Shown here: positions 8,480 through 16,291 of the stretch, one piece after another
Position numbering within the stretch: position 1 is the first letter of the stretch
Layout of the letters: each line of letters opens with the position of its first letter
Assembly (NCBI RefSeq): GCF_900172215.1
Contig: NZ_FWFP01000001.1
Location: forward strand, 310,001-374,000
Reading direction: 5' to 3'
DNA: 64,000 nucleotides
Origin: Ruegeria meonggei
GTDB lineage: Bacteria; Pseudomonadota; Alphaproteobacteria; Rhodobacterales; Rhodobacteraceae
Translations under genes and position numbers: made by a program
Notes under the pieces: model-generated
What the model was told of the DNA's origin: nothing
Database searches by the model: none
Seen by the model: only the letters and a program-made list of their open reading frames with translations

Positions 8480-9289
8480 TTACTGGTCCTTGCCCAACAT
8501 ATGATCCATCGAGATCGAGGGCTGGTCGCACCCGGCCTCACCGACAATCTTGGCGGGAATTCCGGCAACGGTTTTGCAGGCTGGAACCTCTTGCAACACA
8601 ACAGAGCCAGCTGCGATGCGGCTGCAAGGCCCCACTTCGATATTGCCCAACACCTTGGCACCAGCCCCGATCAGCACGCCATCACCGATCGTCGGATGAC
8701 GCTGCTCTTCTTCTTTGCCAGTTCCACCCAGAGTGACCGAATGCAGCATCGAAACGTTGTCGCCAACGATAGCTGTTTCACCGATCACAATCGAATGTGC
8801 GTGGTCGATCATGATGCCCTTGCCGATTTTGGCGGCCGGGTGAATGTCGATGCCAAAAATCTCGGACGAGCGCATCTGGAAGAAATATGCAAGGTCATGT
8901 CGCCCCTTGTTCCACAGCCAGTGGGCAACGCGATAGGCCTGCATCGCCTGATAGCCCTTGAAGTACAGGATCGGCTGCAGCAGGCGGTGGCACGCTGGGT
9001 CGCGCTCGTAAACTGCCATCAGATCGGCGCGTGCCGCCTCTAGCAGTTTCGGATCGTCGGCATAAGCCTCATCGACGATTTCACGCAACACCATCATCGA
9101 CATTTCGTTCGAGCACAGCTTGGCTGCGACCCGATAGGACAAAGCCCTCTCAAGGCTGCGGTGGTGCAGAATACAGGCATGGACCAGCCCACCCATCAGT
9201 GGCTCGTCTTCGACGGCCGCCTGAGCTTCGGTCGCTATGCGGTTCCAGACCGGGTCGACAGAGGTAACCTGACTGCGCTTTTCCAACAT
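8480..9289 (-). CDS. cysE: Serine O-acetyltransferase
   Basis: The 269-residue enzyme acetylates L-serine with acetyl-CoA, the first step of cysteine synthesis. It has the N-terminal helical domain of CysE (about residues 1-140) and a C-terminal left-handed beta-helix built from hexapeptide repeats (GIDIHPAAKIG onward). The segment DHAHSIVIGETA contains the catalytic histidines. The start at ATG 9289 matches the family length. It is divergent from the zinc-finger gene. In several Rhodobacterales genomes cysE lies beside the GTA cluster, which agrees with the GTA remnant found about 0.7 kb away. Confidence 0.95.
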   Translation of the reverse strand: MLEKRSQVTSVDPVWNRIATEAQAAVEDEPLMGGLVHACILHHRSLERALSYRVAAKLCSNEMSMMVLREIVDEAYADDPKLLEAARADLMAVYERDPACHRLLQPILYFKGYQAMQAYRVAHWLWNKGRHDLAYFFQMRSSEIFGIDIHPAAKIGKGIMIDHAHSIVIGETAIVGDNVSMLHSVTLGGTGKEEEQRHPTIGDGVLIGAGAKVLGNIEVGPCSRIAAGSVVLQEVPACKTVAGIPAKIVGEAGCDQPSISMDHMLGKDQ

Positions 9290-9373: not shown

Positions 9374-9712
9374 ATGAATGACACTGTGTTGGCAGAATTC
9401 AAGGCGCGAATAAAGGCACGATTGTCAGCATTGGCCGAGCAATCCGTTTCTGGAAAAAAGGCTCAGGCCGTTGTCGAACTGGACCAGCAAGCCGTTGGCA
9501 GGTTGAGCAGAATGGACGCCCTTCAAAGCCAGGCCATGGCCAAGGCCCAACAAGCCAATCGCGACCTTGAAACGCATCGGTTGCAGATCGCGCTGAGCCG
9601 AATTCAAGAAGGTGAGTTTGGATACTGCGAAGATTGCGGCGATGAGATACCGGCTGGCCGGTTAAACCTGGATCTTGCTGCGACCAAATGTGTCAGCTGT
9701 GCGTCCGGGTAA
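9374..9712 (+). CDS. DksA/TraR-type zinc-finger protein
   Basis: The 112-residue protein has a helical, coiled-coil-prone N-terminal half and a C-terminal zinc finger with paired cysteines (CEDCGDEIP and CVSC). This is the layout of small DksA/TraR proteins that bind in the RNA polymerase secondary channel. It is shorter than classical DksA, so a stringent-response role is only an inference. ATG 9374 is preferred over an upstream in-frame start at 9317, because the upstream 19 residues are basic and unlike the family. Its 3' end overlaps the convergent small gene at 9693 by 20 bases. Confidence 0.85.
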   Translation: MNDTVLAEFKARIKARLSALAEQSVSGKKAQAVVELDQQAVGRLSRMDALQSQAMAKAQQANRDLETHRLQIALSRIQEGEFGYCEDCGDEIPAGRLNLDLAATKCVSCASG

Positions 9713-9989
9713 GCTGACGCTCGATCAAATGCCGCAGAACCAACTCAAAGCACTGGCAATATTGCAGATTGTCGAAACTGGGTTCCTCCGCCAACTGCCG
9801 ATTGCGGGCTGCAGCCATCAGGGACCCATTGCCGAACAAAGGATGCAACCGCCCCGTCTGACCGACATGTTTGTCGGCCAGTTCAGCTTCGCAGATCATG
9901 CGGGCGCATAGGCGATCGCGATCCTCTCGCGGCGCGATCAACAAGACTCGCGCCGCCGCAGTGACATCGCCGTGAAGGATCGGACGCAT
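9693..9989 (-). CDS. Small conserved Rhodobacteraceae protein of the GTA/cysE neighbourhood
   Basis: The 98-residue protein is a compact helical, Arg/Ala/Leu-rich product with no signal peptide. From recollection, similar small proteins with the opening MRPILHGDV and the block GRLHPLFGNGSLMAAA occur in Rhodobacterales next to the end of the gene transfer agent cluster. I cannot assign a function. It starts 9 bases after the stop of the GTA fusion gene on the same strand, so it was probably the last gene of the former GTA transcript. Its 3' end overlaps the convergent zinc-finger gene by 20 bases. Confidence 0.7.
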   Translation of the reverse strand: MRPILHGDVTAAARVLLIAPREDRDRLCARMICEAELADKHVGQTGRLHPLFGNGSLMAAARNRQLAEEPSFDNLQYCQCFELVLRHLIERQLTRTHS

Positions 9990-9998
9990 GCTAGAGGG

Positions 9999-10688
9999 TC
10001 ACCTGACTGTCAGGTGGGCGAACAAGCCAGGCCCATAGCTGGCCGAGACCTGCGCCACCTGAACGTCGTAGGTACCGCTCACACCATCAGTCGTCTTCAT
10101 TGCCGCTGTATATAGCCAGATTGGCTCAGTCACGATCTGTTCCCGAACCTGTGCCCCATTGGCCCAGACTTGTACGATGTAGGATTCGCTCTCTTCCGCA
10201 AGCGGTACCTCAAGACCGGCCCAATCGTCGCCATCCAGCCGTGTACGTCGAATCCACGTCAGATGATCCGGCGGAGAGCATTGCAATATCCCGCTGACCC
10301 CAAAGATCATTACATCGCGCACCTGATCGAAGGTCTCGCCCAGCAGCGCCACCCGACTGGCCACCCCTTTATCAAGAGGTTTCGGGCCTTCAACCACATG
10401 TCGCACCCATTCAGCCCCGGCCCGCGTCTTGCCTGCACCGCGCCCGCCCATAATGACCCAGGACCGCCAGTCGCCTTCGGGCGGCACCTGATGCGGCAGC
10501 GCCCAGAACTCGAACAGGAAAGGAAGGGCGCACAGCCCCCCCTCCCCGATCTCACTCAGAAATCTGTCCCGAACCGCAGCATCGGCGGAGGCGAGCCAAC
10601 CTGCACCCGACCTCAAATCGAGCGCGCTCAAGGTCGATTGCGTATCCACCTTGGGCAATTCCGGCCTGTCTGTGATGTTGTTCGACAA
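9999..10688 (-). pseudogene. GTA scar: terminase N-terminus fused in frame to gp15 C-terminus
   Basis: The 229-residue reading frame is a chimera. Residues about 50-140 match the start of the GTA large terminase: LFEFWALPHQVPPEGDW, then the Walker A GGRGAGKTRAG at 81-91 and VALLGETFDQVRDVM. From about 142 on (TWIRRTR, then VPLAEESESY and VAQVSASYGPG) it matches the C-terminal tail of the last GTA structural protein, gp15. The junction is near base 10265. The terminase lacks Walker B and the nuclease, so it cannot package DNA. The two parts are normally about 12-14 kb apart, so one deletion explains the structure. The exact start is uncertain because gp1 overlaps the 5' end. Confidence 0.8.
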
Positions 10689-10896
10689 AGCTTGTCTCCA
10701 CTTTCTGGCAACTTCGGATCAGCCCCTCTAACTGCCCAAGTTGCTTGCCTGTACCAGCAAGATCTGCATCCTCCCCGGTTCCGATCTGCCTGCGCAATTC
10801 TTCCGCTGCTTGGCGCAGACCGCGAATGGATGTCTCAAGCGACTGCAAAAGTTCCGCCGTCTGGGACATACGCCCTTCCGGGGTAATCAAAGTCAT
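10552..10896 (-). CDS. GTA gp1, small-terminase-like protein (retained)
   Basis: The 114-residue protein matches the first GTA gene product of Rhodobacterales by its blocks SLETSIRGLRQAAEELRRQ, QLGQLEGLIRSCQKVE and QAGIAQGGYAIDL. In Rhodobacter capsulatus gp1 acts with the large terminase in DNA packaging. Here it is complete although its partner is truncated. ATG 10896 is the chosen start; an internal ATG at 10869 is possible, and upstream codons to 11058 look non-coding. It overlaps the terminase-derived frame by up to 137 bases in another frame, a compact arrangement expected of phage-derived genes. Confidence 0.72.
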   Translation of the reverse strand: MTLITPEGRMSQTAELLQSLETSIRGLRQAAEELRRQIGTGEDADLAGTGKQLGQLEGLIRSCQKVETSFVEQHHRQAGIAQGGYAIDLERARFEVGCRLARLRRCCGSGQISE

Positions 10897-11100
10897 GTTT
10901 GCCTGTGACCTCATGCGTGAGTGTTTCCGCACGAGAGAAACGAAAAACGGCCACCGAGTTACCCCGGGGCCGTTGCCCACCTCTTCTAGCATGACACAAC
11001 TTATACGATAGTAAGCGCGCAAAGTCAAGATTTCGCGCAACAGCAGTGCAACATCCAACGCACTGTAAAGTCGATTATTTTTTACACTTTGGGCCGTGCA

Positions 11101-11460: not shown

Positions 11461-12288
11461 ATTATTGAAAAGAATGGAAATTGGGATGACCTCCGCCTTT
11501 TCCTTGCTGTAGCGCGTGAGGGTGGGCTGTCGGCAGCGGCCCGCGCAACAGGTAGCAGTGCTGCTACATTGGGTCGGCGCATGTTTGCCATAGAGCGCAG
11601 TTTAGGGTGTGATCTCTTTCATCGACACGACAGAGGGTATGAGTTAACGCGCGACGGCGAGCGTTTGCTTTCAGACCTTTCTTCGATTGAACCACAGATA
11701 TTACGGGTATTGGCATCGACCTCCCAGACGCAAAAACCTCTGGTCAAAGTGTCGGCTGGAACCTGGACAACACATTTGTTGCTCTCTCACCTTCGAGAAA
11801 TTGTCGGTGAACCACCTGACATCCGTCTAAGGTTCCTGTCCAGCGAGCAGGACTTGAGCATTCTTCAGCGTCAGATCGTGATTGGGTTCCGAAACCGACG
11901 ACCCACTGAAGACGGGCTAGCTGGCCAAAAGCTGAATCAGGTGCAGTTCGCTCCGTACGGAACTTCCAATGCCCCCGAGCAATGGATCAAAGTGCTGGCG
12001 GACACGCCATCTGCACGGTGGTTGGACAAAAGAACCGGCGCCGATGCGGTGTGTGAAGTCAAGTCACCGCGGGACAGCCTGGACTTAGCTCTTTCTGGCG
12101 TAGGGCATGCTTTGCTACCCACATTTATTGGTGAGAAATTCCCTGAGCTGACCCAAGTCGGCAACATCATTCCCGAACTCTCACACGACCAGTGGCTTGT
12201 CACACATCAGGATGACCGCAGTCTTCCAGAGGTGCGCAGAACAATTGATCGGATGCGGGCTGTGATACTAACGCGCGGGCTGAGCTGA
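11461..12288 (+). CDS. LysR-family transcriptional regulator with non-canonical start
   Basis: The translated frame gives a clear LysR winged helix-turn-helix (NWDDLRLFLAVAREGGLSAA, then ARATGSSAATLGRRMFAIER) and a C-terminal effector-binding region, about 275 residues in all. The first ATG, GTG or TTG in frame is TTG 11569, which falls inside the recognition helix. Upstream the frame is open to 11449 but has no standard start. ATT at 11461 or 11464 follows an AAGGG-like site at suitable spacing and would restore a whole DNA-binding domain. The alternative is that the gene has lost its start and is decaying. No divergent target gene is evident. Confidence 0.65.
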   Translation: MIEKNGNWDDLRLFLAVAREGGLSAAARATGSSAATLGRRMFAIERSLGCDLFHRHDRGYELTRDGERLLSDLSSIEPQILRVLASTSQTQKPLVKVSAGTWTTHLLLSHLREIVGEPPDIRLRFLSSEQDLSILQRQIVIGFRNRRPTEDGLAGQKLNQVQFAPYGTSNAPEQWIKVLADTPSARWLDKRTGADAVCEVKSPRDSLDLALSGVGHALLPTFIGEKFPELTQVGNIIPELSHDQWLVTHQDDRSLPEVRRTIDRMRAVILTRGLS

Positions 12289-13864: not shown

Positions 13865-15025
13865 TTAGTTGCCCGAGCTCTGACGCTCGGCCTCAATCTC
13901 GCGCCATTTGGCTACGTTGCGGTTGTGCTCTTGCAGCGTTTCGGCAAATGCGTGCCCTCCTGTGCCATCAGCAACAAAGAAGACATAATCAGTCTGTTCC
14001 GGAGCAACTGCTGCCTCAAGACTGGCGAGACCAGGGTTGGCAATTGGTGTCGGCGGCAAACCGTCAATCACATAGGTATTCCAGGGCGTTGCCCGGCGCA
14101 GCTCACTCCGGCGCAGGCCACGCCCCAAAGTACCCTGACCTTTGGTGACACCATAGATCACCGTCGGGTCCGTTTGCAGCTTCATGCCCTGCTCCAGCCG
14201 GTTCACAAAGACGCTGGCAACCTGGCCACGTTCTTGCGGGACACCGGTTTCCTTTTCGATGATCGAGGCGAGGATCAACATCTCTTCTGGGCTGTTGATC
14301 GGCAGACCGTCCTGACGGCTTTCCCAAACCGCGTTAATCCGCAGCTGCTGTCTGTCCTGCATCTTTTGCAGAACTGCGTTGCGATCATCGCCTGCTGTCA
14401 GATCATAGCTGTCGGGGGCCAACATGCCTTCGGTCGGGATTGCGCTCACCTCACCCGTCAATGCATCAATGCCCTTCAACGCTTCGGCCACCTGCCACGA
14501 GGTCACGCCTTCGGCCACTGAGACACGGTACCGTGTATCTGCATCCTCCCGCTTTTCGGTATAAGTGGCAGGGGCTTCGTCCTCGGCAGCATCGAAGCTG
14601 GCGATTTCAACGAAATCCAGTGTCGCCGGGTCCAGTTCCCGCACCCGGGTCTGAATTCGTGTGACGCCAATGCGGTATTCAATCTCGGATCCGCAAGTGC
14701 TGGCACCGCTGCTGGTGATCTCGTCGATTATGTGTTCCATCGAGGCACCCTCGCGGACCAGAAAACTGCCTGCTTTCAGTTGCGCAGCTTTGTCCGTGTA
14801 ATCCGCCGCCATCCTGAAGATCATCGCGCTGCTGATAGCTCCCTGATCTTCAAGCTCGCGACTGACGTCCCCCATGTTTGAGCCGCCTATGACCTGCAGA
14901 CAAATGGCAGTTTCCAGCGGGCCCGCATCTTTGTAACGCGACTGACCCCACAGGATAAGGCCACCCACCATAAACAAACCGACCACCAAAACGGTCAGCG
15001 CATTTGACGCAAGAGCCCGCCACAT
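13865..15025 (-). CDS. mltG: Endolytic murein transglycosylase MltG
   Basis: The 386-residue inner-membrane protein cleaves nascent peptidoglycan strands and sets glycan chain length. One N-terminal transmembrane helix (about residues 7-27) is followed by a LysM-like region and the YceG catalytic domain. The catalytic glutamate lies in ASIIEKETG (about residue 260) and the motif NRLEQGMKLQTDPTVIYG is present. It begins directly after the fabF stop with no gap, so the two are cotranscribed; this fabF-mltG pairing is common in Rhodobacterales. The C-terminal ADGTGGHAFA block is intact. Confidence 0.95.
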   Translation of the reverse strand: MWRALASNALTVLVVGLFMVGGLILWGQSRYKDAGPLETAICLQVIGGSNMGDVSRELEDQGAISSAMIFRMAADYTDKAAQLKAGSFLVREGASMEHIIDEITSSGASTCGSEIEYRIGVTRIQTRVRELDPATLDFVEIASFDAAEDEAPATYTEKREDADTRYRVSVAEGVTSWQVAEALKGIDALTGEVSAIPTEGMLAPDSYDLTAGDDRNAVLQKMQDRQQLRINAVWESRQDGLPINSPEEMLILASIIEKETGVPQERGQVASVFVNRLEQGMKLQTDPTVIYGVTKGQGTLGRGLRRSELRRATPWNTYVIDGLPPTPIANPGLASLEAAVAPEQTDYVFFVADGTGGHAFAETLQEHNRNVAKWREIEAERQSSGN

Positions 15026-16291
15026 CTAGCTGACCTTTCCGAAAATCACGCTGGCGTTGGTGCCACCAAACCCGAACGAGTTCGACAGCGCCACGTTGAT
15101 CTCACGTTCGCGCTTAGCATTCGGGGCAAGGTCAATTGGGGTTTCAACGGCTGGGTTGTCCAGATTGATAGTCGGTGGCGCAACCTGATCACGGATCGCG
15201 AGGATCGAGAAGATCGCCTCAATCGCACCGGCAGCCCCCAAAAGGTGACCCGTCGCCGATTTGGTCGAGGTCATGGTGGCACTGCTGGCATGGTCACCCA
15301 GCAGGCGTTCTACCGCACCCAGCTCAATCGTGTCCGCCATGGTCGAGGTGCCGTGAGCATTGATGTAATCCAGATCCGTAGGCTCCAGCCCGGCGCTGCG
15401 CAGCGCGGCCCGCATTGAGCGTTCGGCACCGTCGCCATCCTCGGACGGCGCGGTGATGTGATAGGCATCACCGGACATGCCATAGCCCAGAACCTCGGCA
15501 TAGATCTTCGCACCCCGTGCTTTGGCGTGCTCGTATTCTTCCAGAACCACAATGCCAGAGCCTTCGCCCATGACAAACCCGTCGCGATCCTGATCATAGG
15601 GACGGCTGGCCGCTTTGGGGTTGTCGGCATACTTGGTCGACAGCGCCTTGCAGGCGTTAAAGCCCGCAATGCCAATTTCACAGATGCAGCCTTCGCCGCC
15701 GCCTGCAACCATCACATCCGCATCACCCGCACGGATAATCCGGCTGGCGTCACCAATGGCGTGCGCCCCGGTCGAACACGCAGTTACAACCGAGTGGTTC
15801 GGCCCCTTGAACCCGTGACGGATCGAAACCTGACCGGACGCCAGATTGATCAGCGCCCCGGGAATAAAGAACGGGGACACCCTGCGTGGACCTTTGTCGC
15901 GGATCAGGTTGGCCGTTTCGGCAATGGACCCAAGGCCACCAATCCCGGAACCAATCAGAACACCAGTACGCAGGCGCGCCTCTTCGTCCTCGGGCAGCCA
16001 ATCCGCATCCTGACAGGCCATATCGGCCGCCGCGATGGAATACAGAATAAAATCTTCGATCTTGCGCTGCTCTTTTGGCGGCAACCAATCGTCGGGATTA
16101 AATGTCCCATTGGTCCCGTCTCCGCGCGGGACTTCGCAGGCATAGGTCGTGGTGACCCCGCTTGCCTCTGCATCGAACTGAGTGATCGGACCTGCACCGG
16201 ATTCCCCGTCCAACAGCCGCGACCAAGATTCCTCGACCCCGCTGGCTAAAGGAGTGACCAATCCCAGACCAGTTACAACGACTCTGCGCAT
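15026..16291 (-). CDS. fabF: Beta-ketoacyl-ACP synthase II
   Basis: The 421-residue condensing enzyme elongates acyl-ACP with malonyl-ACP. The Cys-His-His triad is visible at Cys172 (VTACSTGAHA), His313 (NAHGTST) and His349 (SATGHLLGAAG). Length and the glycine-rich C-terminus (NSFGFGGTNA) are normal for FabF. It belongs to the minus-strand fatty-acid cluster but is separated from acpP by an acetyltransferase and a HisA-like gene. The start MRRVVVTGLGLVTP is the family N-terminus. mltG follows with no intervening base. Confidence 0.97.
   Translation of the reverse strand: MRRVVVTGLGLVTPLASGVEESWSRLLDGESGAGPITQFDAEASGVTTTYACEVPRGDGTNGTFNPDDWLPPKEQRKIEDFILYSIAAADMACQDADWLPEDEEARLRTGVLIGSGIGGLGSIAETANLIRDKGPRRVSPFFIPGALINLASGQVSIRHGFKGPNHSVVTACSTGAHAIGDASRIIRAGDADVMVAGGGEGCICEIGIAGFNACKALSTKYADNPKAASRPYDQDRDGFVMGEGSGIVVLEEYEHAKARGAKIYAEVLGYGMSGDAYHITAPSEDGDGAERSMRAALRSAGLEPTDLDYINAHGTSTMADTIELGAVERLLGDHASSATMTSTKSATGHLLGAAGAIEAIFSILAIRDQVAPPTINLDNPAVETPIDLAPNAKREREINVALSNSFGFGGTNASVIFGKVS

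Follow-up and report, generated by a model that had tools for sequence, protein, structure and literature searches.

The loss of GTA clusters is usually told as the random decay of cheater lineages. The closest described system to the locus reported here is the RcGTA head-tail cluster (g1 to g15) of Rhodobacterales, with which it has the end genes and the gene order in common; its flanks (DUF7742 and cysE) are those of intact Ruegeria loci. According to the available text of PMC7296036, the megatron comprises peripheral (residues 230-744), central (745-984) and fiber-binding (985-1304) domains. Pseudogenised and lost GTA clusters, read as possible cheaters, are described for several alphaproteobacterial lineages in the accessible part of PMC10883770. 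The locus of Ruegeria meonggei resembles those cases in that GTA production would have been lost by cluster damage, yet differs from them in consisting of one large in-frame deletion that leaves a chimeric ORF; moreover, the accessible part of that paper makes no mention of a junction recurring at one codon, as it does in relatives of this strain. Such a scar is likewise unmentioned in the available portions of PMC9836097 and PMC3692519, and a terminase-megatron fusion was not found in the titles and abstract starts listed by term searches of one open-licence library.

The window analyzed (64,000 nucleotides of one R. meonggei contig) contains a 229-codon ORF that is open throughout (Table 1). 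A preliminary description had read this ORF as beginning with GTA large terminase and passing in one frame into the tail of gp15, and both halves were recovered by profile matches, by PDB 6tba and by comparison with an intact Ruegeria locus (G023). In the terminase part, residues 79-148 matched Terminase_6N (PF03237, 2.4e-5, above the Pfam cut-off), Walker A (GGRGAGKT) occupied residues 81-88, and identity to the G023 terminase was 90% over residues 1-141. Residues 142-228 corresponded to positions 1211-1298 of the 1299 positions of the megatron profile NF048004 (4.4e-23), and also matched PHROG 4271 (1.6e-17) and residues 1218-1302 of PDB 6tba chain 8A, the RcGTA megatron (5.7e-21), with 69% identity to the G023 megatron over 1231-1318. 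Both parts are remnants: the terminase one has Walker A only, covers 63 of the 215 profile positions of Terminase_6N, and is devoid of Walker B, of the nuclease domain and of the Terminase_6C present in the intact gene, while the megatron match, confined to the last 88 positions of NF048004, scored 81 bits vs. a curated cut-off of 800. The switch, previously placed near residue 141 and base 10265, fell at codons 141/142 (10263-10268), where terminase relatives read PPDRRP and megatron relatives continue (L/F/I)SW(I/V)RR; the GATC at this point is common to the terminase and megatron sides of G023.

The flanks had been named beforehand as cysE and a small GTA-adjacent gene, and both identifications held, the small gene being the DUF7742 gene that is the usual 3' neighbour of g15 at the GTA loci compared. 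On the other side, the ATG start of g1 was inferred within ORF 10552-11058, and no significant family was found for g1 in Pfam, PHROG or NCBIfam. The genes of the 5' flank are ones that we take to be MltG-like and FabF-like. The loss of the cluster between these flanks was borne out: based on coordinates, approximately 13.7 kb is missing with respect to G023, and in comparison with the RcGTA cluster everything from terminase codon 141 to megatron codon ~1230 has gone. Within 6 kb around the fusion, the locus search returned matches only to GP1, the pieces of terminase and megatron, DUF7742 and cysE, with no portal, tail or baseplate genes. Genome-wide searches with the fusion and with the GTA major capsid protein matched the former once and the latter nowhere (E<=0.001 for the capsid). 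With the capsid gene unmatched in the genome and portal, tail and baseplate genes unmatched at the locus, the strain does not have the set of a functional RcGTA-like cluster; the cluster ends are kept at the orthologous locus and the middle is missing, the arrangement of a GTA deletion scar. Near the locus, a LysR-type regulator ORF (11569-12288, forward strand) was observed in which HTH profile positions 1-31 are missing, so that either its start lies upstream or the gene is truncated.

Table 1. Features of the R. meonggei locus (positions within the window).
Feature	Position	Strand	Evidence
cysE, conserved 3' flank	8480..9289	-	TIGR01172, 2.6e-68
DUF7742 gene, 9 bp downstream of fusion	9693..9989	-	PF24891, 8.9e-36; same place in other loci
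In-frame terminase-megatron fusion ORF	9999..10688	-	229 aa, TTG start; profile and structure-sequence matches
Codons 142-229 and stop: megatron (g15) C-terminal tail, end of fiber-binding domain	9999..10265	-	NF048004 1211-1298; 6tba_8A 1218-1302; domain limits of PMC7296036
Deletion junction, GATC 4-bp direct-repeat remnant	10265..10268	-	Comparison with five relatives; coordinates from codon numbers
Codons 1-141: GTA large terminase (g2) N-terminal part, Walker A	10266..10688	-	PF03237; 90% identity with G023 terminase over 1-141
GTA g1 (small terminase position), apparently intact, overlaps fusion start	10552..10896	-	tblastn matches; same place in intact loci
Conserved 5' flank gene (presumably MltG-like)	13865..15025	-	Present in 54/54 genomes
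Conserved 5' flank gene (presumably FabF-like)	15026..16291	-	Present in 54/54 genomes

The state of the GTA locus was surveyed in 54 Ruegeria genomes, one per species. Terminase and megatron were separate genes in 36 of them, among which the terminase of G022 is frameshifted and the loci of G036 and G046 each extend over more than one contig; since the two genes lie in most cases about 14 kb apart, as had been anticipated for the ends of the cluster, a chance join in R. meonggei is excluded. The clusters of 18 genomes were truncated. Private breakpoints were found in eight of these: the window genome (G000), whose scar is in frame; Rhodobacteraceae bacterium KLH11 (G029; joined out of frame at terminase 212 / megatron 1218); G004, in which terminase 108 is joined in frame to g14 and the megatron is kept; and G008, G002, G032, G048 and G005. 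The other ten (G007, G025, G027, G028, G031, G037, G038, G039, G042 and G051) have one junction in common, at terminase Glu184 and megatron ~669, giving frames of ~835 aa. A GTA-type capsid gene was present in 38 of the 54 genomes (39 matched, the match in G025 being a 35% prophage-like one) and was absent from all ten genomes with the common fusion, G025 having only that distant prophage-like gene.

The common fusion and the ORF of the window are alike in joining, in frame and at the same locus, an N-terminal part of the terminase to a C-terminal part of the megatron with the loss of the cluster; they differ in that the former keeps Walker B and ~650 megatron residues, while the latter keeps 141 and 88 residues, respectively. 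A 42-aa segment spanning the common junction had no match in G000 at E<=1e-9, and the W-x-D-E/x-G-C of that junction was absent from the window ORF when its junction was read directly. The exact scar, of which the preliminary description knew no described case, is private to the genome of the window, but terminase-megatron fusions as a class are widespread in Ruegeria and in Rhodobacteraceae. Taken alone, the scar of R. meonggei is a private deletion, ordinary in kind; the surprising part is the recurrent class of identical fusions.

Other irregularities were observed at Ruegeria loci. The frameshift of G022 (L126, 1860-3273) splits, near codon 50, the terminase of an otherwise complete cluster, and in Ruegeria sp. 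XHP0148 and PrR005 (L081 and L097, 11413-17268) about 5.8 kb separate terminase and portal, a gap of 0.1-1.4 kb in most other loci. Codon diversity over terminase codons 1-50 was 0.10-0.15 vs. a gene mean of 0.34, and these codons partly overlap g1, which suggests a second constraint. In the fused gene of G039 (L118), Gly84 of the Walker A loop, invariant in 47 other Ruegeria sequences, is replaced by Glu.

The 229-aa ORF is very probably the scar of a ~13.7-kb deletion of an RcGTA-like cluster, and thus a GTA-null allele. The two-part homology, the position between g1 and DUF7742-cysE and the microhomology at the junction point to this reading, while the open frame of 229 codons would also fit a retained product. 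Illegitimate recombination at the 4-bp GATC repeat, with breakpoints at terminase codon 141-142 and megatron codon ~1230, would have removed the body of the head-tail cluster. The resulting strain would be unable to build particles and would therefore be spared the burden of GTA-driven lysis, while possibly still benefiting from GTAs that others make. The frame presumably stayed open because the deletion was in frame and is not old. The open frame had been taken as a sign of either a recent event or a retained product. None of the 141 terminase residues departed from positions invariant in 47 other Ruegeria sequences (G037 and G008 were left out as broken), which fits youth; on the other hand, the median pN of this part vs. 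the others (0.073) was the highest apart from the misaligned G037, hinting at relaxation and at an event that may not be very young, with a median dN/dS of 0.15 (rank 44 of 49). Neither the invariant-site nor the pN result shows use of the product, and our reading is of a scar that is not old and is perhaps slightly relaxed. The product itself, an N-terminal ATPase part lacking Walker B joined to the end of the fiber-binding domain, is most likely non-functional.

One deletion, as first proposed, suffices for the fusion. A history in two steps, in which the common fusion arose first and a further in-frame deletion then took place inside it, is a possible but unlikely alternative: the common fusion is the commonest deletion state in Ruegeria (10/18) and both breakpoints of the 229-aa ORF (terminase 141, megatron ~1230) fall within it, but no intermediate was seen and private deletions are common too (8/18). 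Misassembly is very improbable indeed, for although the genome is a draft of 33 contigs, the junction lies within a 535-kb contig with only 4 bp shared at the join, no GTA capsid match was found in a genome rated 100% complete, and the same class of scar occurs in many other assemblies.

Beyond the genus, one common fusion was used as query against 394 family genomes in 393 genera. Contiguous fused matches were obtained in the genome of G042 and in at least 12 other genera, to which G107 (thirteenth) and G191 (fourteenth, a draft of some 470 contigs) were added, so that the common fusion occurs in at least 14 of the 392 other genera sampled and is known from 24 Rhodobacteraceae genomes (10 Ruegeria and 14 of other genera). 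The junction codon was identical in all 14: W-x-D-E, then L/M/I/Y/F, then G-C. No GTA-type capsid was found in the 14 non-Ruegeria fused genomes, four of which had distant prophage-like matches. By Pfam, the ~835-aa product of one locus (L033) consists of Terminase_6N, the last third of GTA_TIM, Phage-tail_3 and Rcc01698_C. The frame was fully open in 20 of the 24 genomes, broken in G037, G365 and G107 (in the latter by a frameshift near residue 418), and ran off the contig in G191. Outside Rhodobacteraceae, none of 19 genomes matched at 1e-110 showed the fusion, a number too small for a conclusion; five of those matches start within query residues 71-154. A plasmid or phage donor of the fusion was also considered and rejected, none being seen by tblastn: all 16 matching plasmid records and the best 25 of 229 matching phage records were below 60% identity and none covered the query start, the longest phage match among those listed being to Roseobacter phage RDJL3 (query residues 93-829, 32%).

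The distribution of the fused state was compared with trees of the locus. The ten Ruegeria fusions gave 9 label changes on a tree of the flank genes FabF, MltG and CysE (54 rows), 8 of them forced by well-supported branches, and again 9 changes, all 9 so forced, when the shared megatron part was used (52 rows); on the tree of the short terminase part (51 rows) there were also 9 changes, of which only 3 were forced. For the family, a megatron tree built by a quick method (23 fusions among 99 rows, long branches flagged) gave 19 changes, 13 of them forced, and a more careful one (19 fusions among 82 rows) gave 16 changes, 15 of them forced, with 15-16 across bootstrap trees. The careful tree was computed under a plain LG model and left out G191 and four Ruegeria fusions, and 6 of 40 newly fetched intact loci failed the motif filter. 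The changes are read as separate losses because a lost stretch of 12 kb is unlikely to be restored at exactly the codon where it had been; this reading presupposes that the megatron tree reflects how the locus evolved. In the careful tree, sister fusions from different genera (G131 with G269, and G196 with G430; long branches, full support) could be older shared fusions. Two genera were represented by two species each, one fused and the other with separate genes and a capsid gene.

Many Rhodobacteraceae GTA clusters are entered as viral records in IMG/VR (L188-L264), which is a source of conspecific strains. When fused Ruegeria sp. HKCCD7303 (G038, locus L038) was compared with an intact record (L197, L291; IMGVR_UViG_2923875786), the megatron side (1968 bp) showed 3 SNPs and the terminase side (780 bp) 2, of which one falls in the junction codon; judging from this identity, both would belong to one species. 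The terminase reads GAT GAG CTG and the megatron ACC GAA CTA at the site, while the fusion reads GAT GAA CTA, only GA being common to both sides at the crossover; from coordinates, 11.9 kb are gone. A third record (L198, L292; IMGVR_UViG_2911723925) was 99.1% identical over the same 1968 bp, and in it (L292, 2233-8323) ~6 kb with no match to any reference GTA protein stand in place of the terminase beyond codon 56, the portal and protease genes and capsid residues 1-317. On these sequence comparisons, this species is still losing GTAs, and along more than a single path. For the other fused loci compared, three scans returned no IMG/VR record at >=95% identity, and those of G039 and G025 had partial matches at 93-94%.

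As to the cause of the recurrence, it is plausible, though short of probable, that in Rhodobacteraceae the same ~835-aa chimera was made independently about 15 times or more by a fixed in-frame deletion, through dedicated precise excision or selection, with the strain of the window as a variant of this GTA-null class. Selection, an unknown site preference and a homogenised old allele are all possible, and each meets strong objections. That chimeric proteins, above all the ~835-aa fusion, were selected for, independent deletions converging on one junction, is a tentative and rather unlikely reading. The selected chimera would join an ATPase lobe with Walker A and Walker B to the C-terminal half of the megatron and might, for example, block the tails of GTAs or phages. 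Consistent with it are the same amino-acid junction in all 24 genomes, the D and E of Walker B always being kept and the megatron x-G-C always following, the 20 fully open frames, a dN/dS at the fused tips (0.04-0.26) close to intact-gene values and the two cross-genus sister pairs, as expected of an old, retained fusion. Nevertheless, the AlphaFold2 model had pLDDT <50 across the join (173-223) and in much of the stretch 1-88, with no confident chimeric domain, although its alignment of 8 whole fusions and 61 single halves hardly informed coupling across the junction. Selection is also opposed by the three broken frames, by the recent date of the sole datable event, by the window fusion, which lacks both the common junction and Walker B, and by the lack of any neighbouring in-register junction, though such a junction should function as well, among the fusions examined in searches built on W-x-D-E/x-G-C fusions.

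A GTA off-switch, in which an unknown process would cut or recombine at two preferred sites, the Walker B codon of the terminase and a Glu codon of the megatron TIM barrel, excising ~11.9 kb with precision, is fairly improbable. The crossover at the same Glu codon in the 24 junctions read, the mere GA shared at that of G038, the occurrence of fused and intact loci within one species at 3 SNPs per 1968 bp on one side, and the scatter of the fused label on the trees all speak for such a process. However, synonymous codon diversity at the terminase site was 0.37 vs. 0.34 for the gene, and the megatron site varies too; since both sites vary at the codon level, they show no fixed recognition sequence in the DNA. 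Moreover, shared runs no shorter than the one at the site were counted for between 233 and ~400,000 terminase-megatron pairs in ten intact clusters.

No better than this stands the proposal of a single ancient origin of the common fusion, which would have been kept in many species as a GTA-null allele next to the intact one while recombination within species homogenised everything but the junction; we consider it doubtful. If it were true, the tree counts would not count events. It would account for a junction that coincides to the codon across 24 genomes, for its low frequency (10/54 Ruegeria species, at least 14/392 other genera sampled), for the fused and intact loci in one species and for a weak excess of fused-intact divergence at megatron codons +1 to +40 (0.021; 2.9% of 2000 permutations as high). 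Yet the nearest neighbour of a fusion was another fusion in 0 of 10 cases within 20 codons on either side, and in 2 of 10 within 40 codons on the megatron side. Codons 0-6 bp from the junction were also mostly those of the own lineage (CTA in G038, GAG TTG in G042), as were the residues at the junction (Y in G156 and G107, I in G192), with exceptions in G296 (Y vs. I) and in G051 and G025 (codons unlike those of their relatives).

Further candidates were tried and rejected. A microhomology hot spot was discarded on ten intact clusters, where the exact run at the site was 2-8 bp vs. a longest run of 11-14 bp elsewhere. That a single fused allele spread horizontally through homologous recombination was dismissed after third-position scans, in which no tract was common to the fusions. 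Relaxed selection as evidence of age was set aside too: megatron dN was higher in the fused member than in its intact sister in 10 of 10 triples, but this is no evidence of age because the recent G038 shows raised dN as well.

An identical in-frame scar across the family, together with fused and intact members of one species, makes GTA loss countable and datable and opens the cheater model to direct testing. Should the fixed junction be due to precise excision or to the convergent birth of a gene, it would represent a new mechanism.
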